A stretch of DNA of 64,000 nucleotides, from positions 1,868,474 to 1,932,473 of the forward strand of contig NZ_CH672390.1 in assembly GCF_000152865.1 (NCBI RefSeq). The letters are read 5' to 3'. Both the position numbers and the translations under genes were made by a program. This document shows positions 57,662 to 64,000 of this stretch, in pieces. Every line of letters begins with the position of its first letter. The first letter of the stretch is position 1. This DNA is from Erythrobacter sp. NAP1 (GTDB taxonomy: Bacteria > Pseudomonadota > Alphaproteobacteria > Sphingomonadales > Sphingomonadaceae). The notes beneath the pieces are model-generated. The model searched no databases. It was not told the origin of the DNA and saw only the letters and a program-made list of their open reading frames with translations.

Positions 57662-59800
57662 TCACCCGCGTCGCCAGCCGTGATACTTTTCGACCCATTC
57701 GAGAAGCTTTTCAGGCTTGTTTGCTTTCTTCCAGTTGCCGGCAGCAAATTTGTTTGCCTCCGCCATGGTTGGGTAGGGATGGATCGTACCCAGAATCTTG
57801 TTGAGCCCCAGCTTGTGCTTCATCGCCAGCGTGTACTCGGCGAGCAACTCCCCTGCGTGGCTGCCGACGATTGTTGCGCCAAGGATCGTGTCCTTGCCAG
57901 GAGGGGTCAGAACCTTGACGAAGCCCTTGGTCTCGCTTTCGGCAATCGCGCGGTCGAGGTCGTCTAGGCCGTATGTCGTCACTTCGAACTCAATGCCCTC
58001 ATCGCGCGCTTCGGTTTCGTTGAGGCCAACGCGGGCGATCTCGGGATCGGTGAAGGTCACGGCCGGGATGACGCGGTAATCGGCCTTGAACTTCTTGAAC
58101 TGGCCGAAGAGCGCGTTGACGCTCGCATACCAGGCCTGATGGCTGGCAGTGTGGGTGAACTGATACGGGCCCGCGACGTCGCCGGCGGCGAAGATATTGG
58201 GGAATTTGGTCGCGAGAAACTCATCGGTATTTACGGTCTTGTCCGTGTCTACGCCGAGTTTCTCTAGTCCAAAGCCCTTGAGCCGCGCCTTGCGCCCAAC
58301 CGCGAGGATGAGCGCGTCATAAGGGATGTCGACTGAGCCTTCCGGGCCTTCAGCTGTAAGCACTTTGTCAGCCAGACGAACCGCCTTGTGCCCTGTCAGC
58401 ACTTTCACGCCGGACGCTTCGAGCGACGACTTTGCAATTTCGGCAACGTCCTCGTCTTCACGGCCAAGCAGTTGCTCGCCCATCTCGACCTGGGTGACTT
58501 GCGACCCGAGCCGAGAGAGAGCCTGGCTTATCTCGCAGCCAATTGGGCCACCGCCAAGCACCGCGACACGCGCTGGCGCTTTGTCCATCTGCGAGAACGC
58601 ATCCCACATCGTCTCACTCGTGAGATAACCAGAACTTTCAACGCCCTCGATCGGCGGAACCACCGGCTCAGCGCCGCTGGCGATAACGATGCTTCGTGTA
58701 GTCAGGCGCTGCGTACCGCCGTCATTCAGCGCGATTTCGACCGTCCAGGGATCAATGATCGTTGCGTAGCCCTTGATGACATCCACACCCAGGCCTTCAT
58801 AGCGCTCGACGCTGTCATGCGGCTCAATCGTCTTGATAATCTCCATCACGCGCGCAATCGTCTGGCGGAATGGCACTTCGGGTTTGACCGGTGTGATGCC
58901 GTATCGGTCCGCATGCTCCATCATGGCAGCGACCTTCGCACTCTTGATCAAGGCCTTGGAGGGGACGCAGCCGGTATTGAGACAATCGCCGCCCATTTCG
59001 TTCGCTTCGACGAGTGTGACCTTCGCCTTGACGGTTGCGGCGATGTAGGCGCTTACAAGGCCAGCCGATCCCGCGCCGATCACCACCATGTTTCGGTCGA
59101 AGCTCTTGGGCTTGGTGTAGCCTGCATAGACCTTGCGCCGCTTCATCAGGCCGATGATCCCCTTGGCAATCCAGGGCACGATGCCGAGCAGCACGAAGGA
59201 GCCGATGACCGCAGGCGACGCGATCCCCGAAAGGCTGTCGATCTGCGCCAGCTGCGTGCCTGCGTTGACGTAGACGATTGTACCCAGCAGCATCCCAGCC
59301 TGACTGACCCAGGCAAAGGTCCAGGTCTTGATCCGGGTCAGCCCCATGACGAGGTTCACCACGAAGAACGGGAACAAGGGGATCATGCGGATCGTGAAGA
59401 GGTAGAACGCGCCGTCGCGCTCAAGCCCGTTGTTGATGGCCTTCAGCCGCTCCCCGAACTTGCTCTCGATCGTATCGCGCAGGACATAGCGCGACGACAA
59501 GAAAGCAAGCGTTGCGCCGAGCGTCGATGCAAAAGAGACGAGGATGGTGCCCGTCACCAGTCCGAACAGCGCGCCCGCTGCCAGCGTCATGATCGCAGCG
59601 CCCGGAAGCGAGGCCGCCGTCACCGCTACATAAGCGGCGAAGAACACGCCGAGCACAAGCGCAGGGTTCTCATCATAGAACGCACTTGCATCGTCCGAGA
59701 CCTGCTTGATCCCGTCTAGCGTGAGATACGCCCCCAGGTCGAAGAAGAAGTACGCGGCGATGAGCGCAGCCAACGCGGCAAGGATTACGATCTTTTTCAT
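57662..59800 (-). CDS. TVP38/TMEM64 membrane domain fused to mercuric-reductase-like flavoprotein
   Basis: The product is 712 aa from the ATG at 59800 (AAAGGGG upstream). Residues 1 to about 225 carry several membrane helices with the SNARE-associated/VTT pattern (AASLPGAAIMTLAAGALFG; FTIRMIPLFPFFVVNLVMGL). Residues about 240-712 are a pyridine nucleotide-disulphide oxidoreductase: FAD motif VVIGAGSAGLVSAYIAATVK, redox pair GGDCLNTGCVPSKAL, NAD motif VAVLGGGPIGCEISQALSRL and a C-terminal dimerisation domain. No mercury-binding C-terminal cysteine pair is seen, so Hg reduction is unlikely. Substrate unknown. Confidence 0.92.
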   Translation of the reverse strand: MKKIVILAALAALIAAYFFFDLGAYLTLDGIKQVSDDASAFYDENPALVLGVFFAAYVAVTAASLPGAAIMTLAAGALFGLVTGTILVSFASTLGATLAFLSSRYVLRDTIESKFGERLKAINNGLERDGAFYLFTIRMIPLFPFFVVNLVMGLTRIKTWTFAWVSQAGMLLGTIVYVNAGTQLAQIDSLSGIASPAVIGSFVLLGIVPWIAKGIIGLMKRRKVYAGYTKPKSFDRNMVVIGAGSAGLVSAYIAATVKAKVTLVEANEMGGDCLNTGCVPSKALIKSAKVAAMMEHADRYGITPVKPEVPFRQTIARVMEIIKTIEPHDSVERYEGLGVDVIKGYATIIDPWTVEIALNDGGTQRLTTRSIVIASGAEPVVPPIEGVESSGYLTSETMWDAFSQMDKAPARVAVLGGGPIGCEISQALSRLGSQVTQVEMGEQLLGREDEDVAEIAKSSLEASGVKVLTGHKAVRLADKVLTAEGPEGSVDIPYDALILAVGRKARLKGFGLEKLGVDTDKTVNTDEFLATKFPNIFAAGDVAGPYQFTHTASHQAWYASVNALFGQFKKFKADYRVIPAVTFTDPEIARVGLNETEARDEGIEFEVTTYGLDDLDRAIAESETKGFVKVLTPPGKDTILGATIVGSHAGELLAEYTLAMKHKLGLNKILGTIHPYPTMAEANKFAAGNWKKANKPEKLLEWVEKYHGWRRG

Positions 59801-59854
59801 GTGTGCCCCTTTGTACGACCCTTCTTCGCGCGCCTTGGCCAATTTGTTACGGCT

Positions 59855-60985
59855 CTAGCCCGATCCGCCAGCAAGACCAGCGTATTTCCTGAGCCATCGC
59901 ATATCGATGAAGTGCTTGAGCCGCGAAACCCAGCGGCCCTTCGCTGACAAGCGGCCATAGCTCGCAATCGCGCGGCCATCTCCGGTCGACAATAGGTAAA
60001 TGTTGTTCCAGCGCGGGACGTAGGTTTCGCGAGGCTGCCGCCCTGCCATCACGGCGCGCAAGTTTGCCGCAAGTACAGGTCCGGCAAACACCGCGTGAAC
60101 ACCTGAATGTGGCACATGACGATCTTGCCGGGCGGCAACGTCGCCGACGGCAAATATGTGTGGGTGCGAAAGTGAGCGCTGGTGCTGGTCGATCGCCGCG
60201 AACCCGGCTTCGTCAACTGCGAGCCCGCTTGCCTTCACCCAATCAGGAGCTGCGCTGCCGATCGCCGCGACTATCGTGTCGACAGGCTCGAGAGGCTCTC
60301 CTCCGGCATAAAGTCCGTTCTCGTCGATGCGTGCATCTTCTTGAACGAGCACGATTGATTGCCTCGACAACTCTTCAAGAGCGGTTTTTCTGACGGAGGA
60401 TGAGAATTCAGGGAGCAGACCGGCTGTGCCAGCAACGAGCGCCACCTGCGGCTTTTTCTCAAAACCTGCGCGGTTGCGGAGGGCAAAGGCGAGTTCAACA
60501 CCGCCTGCCCCGCCGCCAATGACCGCAATCCTGGGTGAAGGGCCTAGCGCGTCCATCCTCTCAACGAAGCCTTGGATGGGACGGATATCGATAAGGCGCG
60601 GATCCTTGCCCAAGACATCGCTCGCTTGCCCAACGCCGCCAGTGTCGAGCGAGGCGATGTCAAATTTAACTCGCTCTCCAGCATCGGTTTCGACGCGGCG
60701 AGCATCCGGATCAATCAGGGCGCACCGCCCCTCGACCAAACTCGCACCTGCACGAAGCGCCAACCCGGCCACGTCCACCAGACCCTCATCACGATTGTAG
60801 TGGCCCGAAATCCATCCGGGTACTGTCCCCGAATACCTCAGTTGCCGCGAAGGCGTGAGGATGGTGGCGCGCGGACAGGGCAGCCCATGCCTGATCCAAT
60901 CGGCAAGCACCGCGACATGCGCATGGCCGCCACCGATCAGCAGCAGATGCTCTGGTTTGCCATGTGAGGACGGCATATTCATCAC
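59855..60985 (-). CDS. FAD-dependent pyridine nucleotide oxidoreductase
   Basis: The product is 376 aa. FAD-binding start LLLIGGGHAHVAVLADWIR, second nucleotide fold RIAVIGGGAGGVELAFALRN and the FAVGDVAAR flavin motif near residue 290. GGGHAHV with the following LRYSGTVPGWISG is like the NADH-dehydrogenase-type domain found fused to selenide-water dikinase in some bacteria, but no SelD domain is present. It precedes the TVP38-flavoprotein gene on the same strand (54-base gap). The acceptor is unknown. Confidence 0.88.
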   Translation of the reverse strand: MMNMPSSHGKPEHLLLIGGGHAHVAVLADWIRHGLPCPRATILTPSRQLRYSGTVPGWISGHYNRDEGLVDVAGLALRAGASLVEGRCALIDPDARRVETDAGERVKFDIASLDTGGVGQASDVLGKDPRLIDIRPIQGFVERMDALGPSPRIAVIGGGAGGVELAFALRNRAGFEKKPQVALVAGTAGLLPEFSSSVRKTALEELSRQSIVLVQEDARIDENGLYAGGEPLEPVDTIVAAIGSAAPDWVKASGLAVDEAGFAAIDQHQRSLSHPHIFAVGDVAARQDRHVPHSGVHAVFAGPVLAANLRAVMAGRQPRETYVPRWNNIYLLSTGDGRAIASYGRLSAKGRWVSRLKHFIDMRWLRKYAGLAGGSG

Positions 60986-61226: not shown

Positions 61227-62936
61227 ATGGCCCTCGAGACCCCTACTCACGGCTCGAAAATTTCGCTGGTCACATTTTTCCGGCACTTCTTCGCAATTCT
61301 GCGGCCCGAGGCCAGTTTCTACTGGTTGGCGGTGGTCTACGGCGTGGGCGTGAGCCTGCTGTCACTAGCGACGCCGATCTCGGTTCAGATGCTCGTCAAC
61401 ACGGTCGCGAACACTGCTCTAACTGCGCCGTTGGTGGTGCTCTCGCTGACACTGTTCGGCCTGCTGATCCTGTTTGGTTTGTTGTACGCGCTTCGTATCC
61501 ATCTGATGGAGCTGTTTCGGCGACGGTTTTACGCCCGAATGGTTGCGGAGATATCGCTGATTGCGGTCTACGCGCAGGATCCGTTCTTCTCCGATCGCAA
61601 ATCGTCAGCGCTGTTCAATCGATATTTTGACGTCGTGAACGTGCAAAAAGCTCTGCCTGTGCTTTTCATTGGCGGCTTCTCGGTCGTGCTTCAGGTCGCA
61701 GTGGGCTTCGTTCTGGTGTCGCTCTATCACCCGTTGTTCCTGGTGTTCACGCTGGTCATGTCGGCACTGATCTGGGTGATCTGGCTGATCTGGGGCGCAA
61801 AGGCGATCCGCACGGGCATCGATTTGAGCCATGCCAAGCACGAGACGGCCAACTGGCTTGAAACGGTCGGCGGTTCGAATGGCTTCTTCAAGTCAGAGCG
61901 CCGGGTCGACTACGCGCTCGACCGGACGGACGAATATACGCACGCCTACCTCGAACAGCACAAACGCCACTTTCGCCAGCACTTTGCCCAGACCCTGGCG
62001 TTCCTGCTGCTCTATGCAGCGGCAAGCGCAGCGTTGCTGGGTCTTGGAGGCTGGCTTGTCATTCAGGGGCAATTGACGCTCGGCCAGCTCGTCGCGGCGG
62101 AACTCGTACTTTCGGTGGCCTTCTTCGGTGTCGCGCAGCTGGGGACCTACCTCACGTACTTCTACGACCTTTGCGCCGCAGTCGAAGAGATCTCTCTGTT
62201 CTACGACGTCGAGCAAGAGCAGCCGACTTCGCAAGACCCTGTCGATCTTAGTGATCACACACTGGTATTCACCGGCGTGAAAGCCAAGGCGCGCAGTGAT
62301 GAGATCACGTTCAACCTCGAAATTCCTAGCGGCGCGATCATCATGGCTGTCGCCCGCCATCATGGCATCCAGCGGCTTTTCACCAACCTTCTGAAGATGC
62401 ACAGACGGCCAGATTCTGGATTTCTCACCATCGGCGGCACCGACTTCCGCGACATCGAGGGATATAACCTCAGGAAAGACGTTCACGTTCTTGAGCGCGC
62501 GACATTCGTCGGCATGACAATCCGCGAATATCTCGCACTGTCATGCCCCGACACGGCGAACCAGCGCATGGTCAAGGCTCTCGAAACCGTCGGGCTCATC
62601 GACACGATGTCGAAGCTAGAAAATGGGCTCGATACACCCATTGCCTACACCGGCTATCCGCTTTCAGCAGTCGAAGTGCAGCAGTTGAAGCTCGCCAACG
62701 CCTTGCTCGAACAACCGCGCATTCTGGTCCTGAGCCCACTGTTCGATCTTGTGAGCGAAAGGCATCTCGCCGCCGCAATTCGGGAACTGCGCGAGCAAGC
62801 TTATTCGACCGTGATCTATTTCTCGAACCGCGAGACCGATTTGGGCTTCGACAAATTCCTTTATCTCGATGTCGAACAGCAGGGCTATTTCGAGGACTTC
62901 GAGCATTTCCATGACGTTGTGGGAGCATCGCAATGA
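61227..62936 (+). CDS. ABC-exporter-like protein with a degenerate ATPase domain
   Basis: The product is 569 aa. Residues about 30-320 look like a type I exporter membrane domain with about six helices (VVYGVGVSLLSLATPISVQM; ALYALRIHLMELFRRRFYAR-like region). Residues about 340-569 align with an ABC ATPase but every catalytic motif is altered: VARHHGIQ (375-382) replaces Walker A, LSAVEVQQ (479-486) replaces LSGGQ, ILVLSP (499-504) has Ser-Pro instead of Asp-Glu, and IYFSNR lacks the switch His. ATP hydrolysis is therefore unlikely. It overlaps the HlyD gene by 4 bases. Confidence 0.88.
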   Translation: MALETPTHGSKISLVTFFRHFFAILRPEASFYWLAVVYGVGVSLLSLATPISVQMLVNTVANTALTAPLVVLSLTLFGLLILFGLLYALRIHLMELFRRRFYARMVAEISLIAVYAQDPFFSDRKSSALFNRYFDVVNVQKALPVLFIGGFSVVLQVAVGFVLVSLYHPLFLVFTLVMSALIWVIWLIWGAKAIRTGIDLSHAKHETANWLETVGGSNGFFKSERRVDYALDRTDEYTHAYLEQHKRHFRQHFAQTLAFLLLYAAASAALLGLGGWLVIQGQLTLGQLVAAELVLSVAFFGVAQLGTYLTYFYDLCAAVEEISLFYDVEQEQPTSQDPVDLSDHTLVFTGVKAKARSDEITFNLEIPSGAIIMAVARHHGIQRLFTNLLKMHRRPDSGFLTIGGTDFRDIEGYNLRKDVHVLERATFVGMTIREYLALSCPDTANQRMVKALETVGLIDTMSKLENGLDTPIAYTGYPLSAVEVQQLKLANALLEQPRILVLSPLFDLVSERHLAAAIRELREQAYSTVIYFSNRETDLGFDKFLYLDVEQQGYFEDFEHFHDVVGASQ

Positions 62937-63979
62937 CCCTGCGCGCCTTGCACATGAAGCATTTCACCGCGCTCCAGAGCGTGCGGACCCCGCGTATCTT
63001 CCGCACGATCTTCGTAACGGTGCTGATTGCGATCGTGCTTGCGGTCCTGTTCCTGATCTATGTCCCCTGGGTCCAGACCACTGGCGGACGCGGAACCGTG
63101 ACGACGCTCAACCCCAATGAGCGCCAGCAGGAAGTCAACGCTTTGGTCTCAGGGCGGATCGAGGAGTGGTATGTCGGAGATGGCAGCCGGGTCCAAAGAG
63201 GAGACCCGATCGTCCGCATCGCCGATATCGACCCAAATTTGCTGCAAAGACTCGAAGCCGAACGTGGGCAGGTCGAGGTTCAGCTCCAGACAGCGCGCAA
63301 CGCGCTCGCGACCGCAGAGATCGACCTTCGGCGTATGCAGGAGCTGTTTCAGGCAGGCCTCGCAGCCCGCCGCGAATATGAGCAGGCGCAAATCCGGGTC
63401 GAAGAAATGCGCGGCAACGTGGCCGCAGCCGAGGCGAGCCTGGTGCGGACAGAGACGAACCTTGCGCGCCAGTCGGAACAATTGATCACGGCCCCTCGCA
63501 ACGGTTTTATCCAGTCTATCAATGCAGGCGACGAAGCGACGTTCATAAGCGCAGGGCAGGTCCTCGCAACATTCGTGCCGGAAACACAGACGCGGGTCGT
63601 CGAAGTGTTCGTCGATGGCCGCGATGTGGCGCTTGTGCAGACCGGCGAAGAAGCCCGGATCGAGTTTGAAGGCTGGCCCGCCGTACAATTCAGCGGATGG
63701 CCCTCGGTCGCGATCGGCACCTTCCCCGGCATTGTCGAGACCGTCGATCAGGTCGCACAGCCGGACGGGCGTTTCCGCGTACTCATCAAGGAAGACCCGA
63801 ATGCCGAAGAAGGCTGGCCGGAAGATCGCTATGCCCGCATCGGGACGGTGGTCCGGGCCTGGATCCTGCTTGAAACTGTGCCTGTCGGATATGAGATCTG
63901 GCGTCAGCTCAACAACTTCCCGCCCGAACTTCCGCCGGTCAGCGCCAACGGCTCAACCAACGGGTCGCAGGGCTACTGA
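62933..63979 (+). CDS. HlyD-family periplasmic adaptor protein
   Basis: The product is 348 aa. One membrane helix at about residues 23-45, then a biotinyl-lipoyl half motif (VNALVSGRIEEWYVGDGSRV), a long coiled-coil hairpin (LEAERGQVEVQLQTARNALATAEI through LVRTETNLARQ) and the second lipoyl half (LITAPRNGFIQSINAG). A beta-barrel domain follows, ending in an unusual Asn/Ser-rich tail. It would bridge the inner-membrane partner to an outer-membrane channel. Overlaps the upstream gene by 4 bases. Confidence 0.93.
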   Translation: MTLRALHMKHFTALQSVRTPRIFRTIFVTVLIAIVLAVLFLIYVPWVQTTGGRGTVTTLNPNERQQEVNALVSGRIEEWYVGDGSRVQRGDPIVRIADIDPNLLQRLEAERGQVEVQLQTARNALATAEIDLRRMQELFQAGLAARREYEQAQIRVEEMRGNVAAAEASLVRTETNLARQSEQLITAPRNGFIQSINAGDEATFISAGQVLATFVPETQTRVVEVFVDGRDVALVQTGEEARIEFEGWPAVQFSGWPSVAIGTFPGIVETVDQVAQPDGRFRVLIKEDPNAEEGWPEDRYARIGTVVRAWILLETVPVGYEIWRQLNNFPPELPPVSANGSTNGSQGY

Positions 63980-63981
63980 TC

Positions 63982-64000
63982 ATGAAGGTCCGCTCTGCCA
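63982..64000 (+). CDS. start of a further gene, truncated by the window
   Basis: An ATG two bases after the adaptor stop opens MKVRSA before the window ends. By position a TolC-type outer-membrane channel would be expected, but nothing in the six codons shows this. The spacing supports a real operon member. Confidence 0.4.

Follow-up and report, generated by a model that had tools for sequence, protein, structure and literature searches.

The window analysed here, a 64,000-nucleotide stretch of the Erythrobacter sp. NAP1 genome, ends within an operon that encodes, in this order, an ABC-like protein, an HlyD adaptor and a TolC-family channel (Table 1). The ABC-like and HlyD-like ORFs share an ATGA overlap, in agreement with the original prediction of an adjoining HlyD adaptor gene. 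Reading the contig past the window placed the start of the channel gene 2 bases after the HlyD stop codon; its product is a 490-aa protein with a Pfam match to OEP (E = 4.7e-31). The operon thus contains all three gene types of a type I secretion system: one for the ABC protein, one for an HlyD-type adaptor and one for a TolC-type channel. The next gene lies on the opposite strand and does not encode an ABC protein. Of the two genes that were thought possibly to follow, TolC and a second ABC protein, the first is therefore present and the second is absent from the operon. The suggestion that the system needs another ATPase is thereby excluded for a partner encoded within the window operon.

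Table 1 Genes and residues of the operon at the end of the window
Feature	Position in window	Strand	Details
ABC-exporter-fold membrane protein with non-catalytic nucleotide-binding domain (NBD)	61227..62936	+	569 aa, intact ORF
HlyD-family periplasmic adaptor	62933..63979	+	348 aa; HlyD_3, E 1.1e-13 (Pfam)
TolC-family outer-membrane channel gene, 5' part	63982..64000	+	continues past the window (L002:3056-4528)
Glu292 in TM6 (GQLVAAE)	62100..62102	+	hydrophobic stretch; helix 285-326 in the model
Former Walker A, ARHHGIQR, residues 376-383	62352..62375	+	Lys replaced by Gln382, Ser/Thr by Arg383
Former Q-loop, Glu423-Arg424	62493..62498	+	one-residue alignment ambiguity; Gln at neither position
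Former signature LSGGQ, now LSAVE, residues 479-483	62661..62675	+	alignment
Former Walker B and catalytic Glu, ILVLSP, residues 499-504	62721..62738	+	alignment
Asp507, at the Ser of the canonical SALD D-loop	62745..62747	+	alignment
Former H-loop His, now Asn534	62826..62828	+	alignment

Several neighbouring genes were recorded. A VTT membrane domain fused to a pyridine nucleotide-disulphide oxidoreductase is encoded at 57662-59842 on the minus strand of the window, and the gene for a second Pyr_redox_2 protein (59855-60985) adjoins it. About 7 kb beyond the operon lie a TPR-sulfotransferase gene and an adjoining TonB-dependent receptor gene (L002:11643-15999; Pfam). This pair is also found near the operon in an uncultured Erythrobacter and in two Halieaceae, Pseudohaliea and Chromatocurvus (L044, L068 and L076), where Pfam was applied to L076, and L044 and L068 were grouped with L076 by similarity only. 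A functional link or a shared island is possible. At another locus (L124:13255-19001), two putative flavin-dependent halogenase ORFs and a TonB-receptor-like ORF, assigned by inspection of the sequence, lie just beyond the operon.

The 569-aa protein matched ABC_membrane (E = 9e-9) and ABC_tran (E = 6.4e-6) in Pfam, the latter match beginning only at residue 387, past the Walker A position. We utilized AlphaFold2 with 96 family sequences to predict its structure, and the model displayed a complete ABC exporter fold (pLDDT 89, pTM 0.80). The best structural match was ATP-bound HlyB/D (8dck_A; Foldseek TMq 0.87), and superposition on 8dck_B gave a VIA Z of 25.9 with an rmsd of 2.8 over 546 residues. 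The Pfam matches, the model and the fold matches agree on a membrane domain of six helices joined to an NBD fold, as in ABC exporters of the type IV fold, and bear out the predicted membrane domain and ATPase-shaped C-terminus. The model was closer to ATP-bound than to nucleotide-free HlyB. A canonical HlyB-type control, itself a weaker model (20 sequences, pLDDT 78, pTM 0.54), was likewise nearer the ATP-bound state (8dck_B, TMt 0.86) than the nucleotide-free state (7sgr_B, TMt 0.74). Because the canonical control behaves alike, the closed, ATP-like shape is no evidence for a locked-closed NBD dimer and was not used as such.

Seven catalytic positions were scored: Walker A Lys, Walker A Ser/Thr, Q-loop Gln, signature Gln, Walker B Asp, catalytic Glu and H-loop His. 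The alignment comprised 115 homologues (the window protein, 34 proteins from whole-genome searches and 80 from a GTDB contig scan), 22 sister-clade proteins and 27 canonical exporters. A split gene from genome G014 (L031, L032) and the own-genome copies (L001-L003) were left out, and removal of identical NBDs reduced the 115 rows to 105 distinct homologues. The canonical set consisted of 24 T1SS-type proteins, drawn from T1SS family models, and three further ABC exporters encoded in the window genome; the control ORFs were the longest per locus containing GKS or GKT.

Set against the canonical exporters, the window protein carries Gln at the Walker A Lys site (382), Arg at the Walker A Ser/Thr site (383), Glu at both the Q-loop Gln (423) and signature Gln (483) sites, Ser at the Walker B Asp (503), Pro at the catalytic Glu (504) and Asn at the H-loop His (534). 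It therefore retains 0 of the 7 catalytic residues that characterize ABC exporters, and by sequence lacks the active-ATPase residues of the inner-membrane ABC protein of a type I secretion system. All four motifs quoted as degenerate in the original prediction were found to be so, its "switch His" corresponding to Asn534 of IYFSNR. The loss extends to the whole family: of the 105 distinct homologues, 98 retain not one of the seven residues and the other 7 a single one each. By comparison, all seven are present in 26 of the 27 canonical exporters aligned with them and six in the remaining one, although the Walker A residues of these controls, unlike the other positions, are present partly by construction, since GKS or GKT was a condition of selection. 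Not one of the 105 distinct homologues carries Walker A Lys, Walker B Asp, signature Gln or Q-loop Gln. Depending on the alignment, the Q-loop Gln falls in column 423 or 424; these counts use 423, and a single homologue has Gln in the neighbouring column 424. Because none of the 105 keeps these four residues, the motif loss reflects neither chance nor sequencing error. Close homologues with intact Walker motifs, named beforehand as a sign of such error, did not appear: the closest Walker A-intact relatives found share ~33% identity (L040), and they too lack the catalytic Glu. With at least six of the seven residues missing from all 105 distinct homologues, the predicted loss of ATP hydrolysis is strongly supported, at the sequence level, as an old, fixed state.

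Some of the substitutes are themselves widely shared. Arg383 occupies the Walker A Ser/Thr site in 98 of 105 distinct homologues, Arg424 stands beside the Q-loop site in 104, Asp or Glu is found at 423 in 100, and Glu483 replaces the signature Gln in 90. Glu483 alone is not diagnostic, because one of the 27 canonical exporters, L162 from the window's own genome, also carries Glu there. Ranked by conservation among NBD positions, Arg424 lies at the 95th percentile and Arg383 at the 89th; the catalytic Glu site 504 (13th) and signature Gly 481 (2nd) vary freely. Across the 115 rows, the mean frequency of the major residue is 0.70 in the membrane domain versus 0.57 in the NBD, and several polar or charged residues are fixed inside hydrophobic stretches of the membrane domain. 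We also considered a trans-dimer salt-bridge swap between Glu382 and Lys483. Lys483 occurs only together with Glu382 (10/10), and because all ten proteins form a single clade, this charge swap represents one event; the candidate was rejected.

Purifying selection acts on the gene in every one of the 17 pairs of same-genus copies compared. The dN/dS between the window gene and its closest relative is 0.018 for the membrane domain and 0.047 for the NBD; across the 17 pairs it ranges over 0.018-0.163 and 0.047-0.300, respectively, never exceeding 0.30, although only the closest pair is well measured because dS is >1 in most pairs. Together with the loss common to all 105 distinct homologues, these values uphold the view that the intact 569-codon frame is not a recent pseudogene. 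In one genome of the same genus (G014, contig C259), the ABC-like gene is split into two overlapping frames (L031/L032) by a frameshift or an assembly error. It is the only broken copy among 29 positive genomes; the other 28 have open frames.

We analyzed the distribution of the gene in relatives and in wider samples. Of 61 relatives searched, 29 carry the ABC-like gene (24 of the 37 in the own genus). It was also found in 22 of 199 genomes of the own family, in at least 3 of 385 genomes of a class sample and in at least 11 of 398 genomes of a phylum sample, where the sister form accounts for one of the 11; detection thresholds differ between these searches, and the class and phylum counts are lower bounds because three candidates were scored per genome. 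The best 80 of at least 563 relatives in the GTDB contig scan span Alpha- and Gammaproteobacteria and include Erythrobacter, Parvularcula, Sphingobium, Novosphingobium, Sandarakinorhabdus, Methylobacterium, Pseudohaliea, Chromatocurvus and Xanthomonas. Moreover, 15 plasmid records, every one from Sphingomonadales genera, carry the gene. The degenerate exporter is carried by many marine and soil bacteria. Its patchy distribution (22 of 199 genomes of the own family) indicates that the system is dispensable, and would fit an accessory, horizontally moved system.

The three-gene arrangement is conserved. An HlyD gene lies directly downstream in 92 of 92 loci with at least 2.8 kb of downstream sequence, five of these genes having been recovered by a separate check beyond the initial distance limit, and a TolC-family gene is present in 91 of the 92 (the exception is L107); these locus counts are not de-duplicated (e.g. 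L081/L127, L071/L130) and include 10 sister-clade loci. A LysR gene occurs within 2.5 kb upstream in only 27 of 94 loci with at least 2 kb of upstream sequence and is absent from the window locus, and we rejected this regulator as a constant partner. Among eight LysR proteins scored, five (from own-order loci and Xanthomonas) matched OxyR best and three (from families f195 and f240) matched NhaR best, all under the cut-off. One plasmid record names the LysR-type gene "hydrogen peroxide-inducible genes activator".

A related, sister-type gene was found in 23 of 100 genomes of another family of the same phylum (f240), and 22 of the 23 proteins were examined. The same adaptor and channel genes lie downstream in the 10 sister loci examined. 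Walker A Lys is kept in 21 of 22 sister proteins, and Walker B Asp and signature Gln in all 22; the catalytic Glu (Gly in 18), Q-loop Gln and H-loop His are each found in 0 of 22. In one sister-clade protein (L170, genome G855), Walker A has been independently lost (RDDDYSRA), with the operon and Walker B Asp kept. In trees of 23 degenerate (two from one genome), 10 sister and 27 canonical proteins, built separately for the membrane domain and the NBD, the degenerate and sister proteins together form one clade (ultrafast bootstrap 94 and 100), within which the degenerate clade received 96 and 84 and the sister clade 99 and 99. With ATP-binding residues kept and the catalytic Glu and H-loop His gone, the sister clade looks like an intermediate, whose proteins should bind but not hydrolyse ATP. 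The simplest history would be that hydrolysis was lost first and ATP binding later, at least twice.

Two acidic residues distinguish both clades from canonical exporters. All 105 distinct degenerate homologues and all 22 sister-clade proteins (127/127) have both Glu292 and Asp507, neither of which occurs in any of the 27 canonical exporters. We asked whether Glu292 occupies the position of LmrA E314. Counted back from the Walker A Lys site, Glu292 is 90 residues away (94-98 in five canonical proteins) and E314 is 74 residues away (from K388 of LmrA); because these distances differ, the analogy is not positional, and identity of the two sites was ruled out.

The protein has kept its exporter shape and its partner genes and has lost the residues for ATP use; therefore, it probably works otherwise, perhaps powered by an ion gradient. 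Our preferred reading, to which we assign a probability of roughly 0.4, is an apparatus resembling type I secretion or tripartite efflux that works without ATP hydrolysis at its own NBDs. The ABC-fold inner-membrane dimer, the HlyD adaptor and the TolC-family channel would form one trans-envelope apparatus, in which the former NBD may serve as a structural base for the membrane domain. The membrane domain would use an ion gradient to drive transport, by analogy with measurements on NBD-less LmrA and MsbA; this coupling is the least certain part, a best guess that is unproven. Glu292 would be the first candidate for an ion-carrying residue, although, lying near the periplasmic end of TM6, it may have a role in contacting the adaptor instead. 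There would be a reason for ATP binding to go along with hydrolysis: according to the available part of the MsbA study (PMC4979069), ATP traps MsbA from which only the Walker A Lys is missing, but not NBD-free MsbA.

Alternatively, the ABC-fold dimer may only anchor and gate the HlyD-TolC assembly, as a passive or gated conduit or a structural or sensory scaffold. Such a dimer could be a docking base for the adaptor, and a three-gene operon maintained after the ATP-contacting residues have gone would be expected of it; however, the membrane domain is the best conserved part, and its fixed polar and charged residues seem more than a bare anchor needs. We consider this explanation unlikely, but a serious competitor. 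Rather less probable is that, in the manner of TmrAB or TM287/288, the protein is the degenerate half of a pair whose other, canonical ABC half-transporter is encoded elsewhere and hydrolyses ATP. Exporters with one degenerate site are common (PMC7756269, available part), three other ABC exporters of the own genome keep six or all seven residues, and in Xanthomonas populi (L112) a canonical exporter (TIGR02204, 864 bits, cut-off 780) is encoded upstream, with a LysR gene between it and the operon. Similar ORFs lie upstream of the LysR gene and operon in three further Xanthomonas loci (L104, L110 and L114); the four ORFs are 605-694 aa long, and the one in L112 alone was typed. Against such pairing, no ABC gene, and hence no canonical partner, lies between or adjoining the three genes in the window genome (L002) or in ten loci examined, and the degenerate sites of well-studied heterodimers still bind ATP, whereas here the Walker A and B residues are gone. 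At L122, an ABC-ATPase-like ORF was seen about 5 kb away on the opposite strand.

Arg383, Arg424, Glu/Lys483 and Asp507 might also form a re-purposed site that binds another anion or a regulatory ligand and gates the exporter. The high conservation ranks of Arg424 and Arg383 would suit such a site, but other former site positions vary freely, the conserved residues could simply be inter-domain salt bridges, the sole charge swap is a single event in one clade, and the gene context indicates no ligand; we regard this as quite improbable. A decaying gene or an assembly artefact, for which the split copy in G014 might be cited, is refuted by the open frames in the other positive genomes, the dN/dS values and the shared loss in all homologues, and has practically no remaining weight. 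Returning to the apparatus working without its own ATP hydrolysis, we propose in its fullest form a natural ABC-fold exporter turned into a purely secondary, ion-gradient-driven transporter within a tripartite machine, with stepwise loss of hydrolysis (as in the sister clade) and then of ATP binding, and with the membrane Glu and D-loop Asp fixed before the clades split. This account is tentative, and the odds are somewhat against it.

ABC exporters are defined by ATP use. A natural, conserved family without catalytic residues that is still tied to an adaptor and a channel makes the question of ion-gradient-only membrane domains directly testable, and the sister clade offers an intermediate in which ATP would be bound and not hydrolysed. 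Database names such as "ABC transporter ATP-binding protein", under which, or as "ABC transporter transmembrane domain-containing protein", the family is publicly annotated, hide the loss of the ATPase. In a literature search of titles and abstract openings, we recognized no paper on the family among the matches listed other than PMC9505733, nor any description of an exporter family whose operon's only ABC gene has also lost ATP binding. That paper reports HlyBD2-OMP2 of Blastomonas fulva T2, which is probably a family member, as judged from its gene lengths (1659/1053/1503 bp) and its best similarity to Novosphingobium aromaticivorans, itself a carrier of the family (SARO_RS19820 in strain DSM 12444). 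The available part of the paper presents it as an ordinary HlyB-type pump and does not mention lost motifs.

Type I secretion exporters of the HlyB/LssB type (TIGR01846, TIGR03375) share the exporter fold and the HlyD and TolC-family genes in the operon. The window protein differs in having no N-terminal C39-like domain (569 aa versus about 700), and its family differs in having no catalytic residues and in forming a separate clade in trees. It scored 89 bits with TIGR01846 (cut-off 726) and 88 bits with TIGR03375 (cut-off 693), and none of TIGR01846, TIGR03375, TIGR01842 and TIGR01193 exceeded its curated cut-off (61-91 bits against 510-726). Exporters with one degenerate site (TmrAB, TM287/288, BmrCD, TAP) have likewise lost the catalytic Glu and signature residues. 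In the cases described in the available part of PMC7756269, where such exporters appear as common and well known, ATP binding persists at the degenerate site, alongside a canonical second site; in contrast, our family has neither ATP-binding residues nor a partner gene in the operon.

The ion-coupling work on LmrA and MsbA is debated. In the available parts of these studies, both of which used Lactococcus lactis as host (PMC4979069, PMC6155054), NBD-less MsbA shows pH-gradient-dependent ethidium efflux and is less efficient than the full protein (PMC4979069), and LmrA without its NBD conducts ions and acts like a secondary transporter, its proton-coupled drug transport requiring E314 in TM6 (PMC6155054). 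In these studies, the case for membrane domains driven by an ion gradient alone comes from the laboratory truncations LmrA-MD and MsbA-MD. Like them, the window protein has the membrane domain of an ABC exporter without a working ATPase, as predicted from its residues; unlike them, it occurs in nature, has retained a domain of NBD shape and belongs with a trans-envelope operon.
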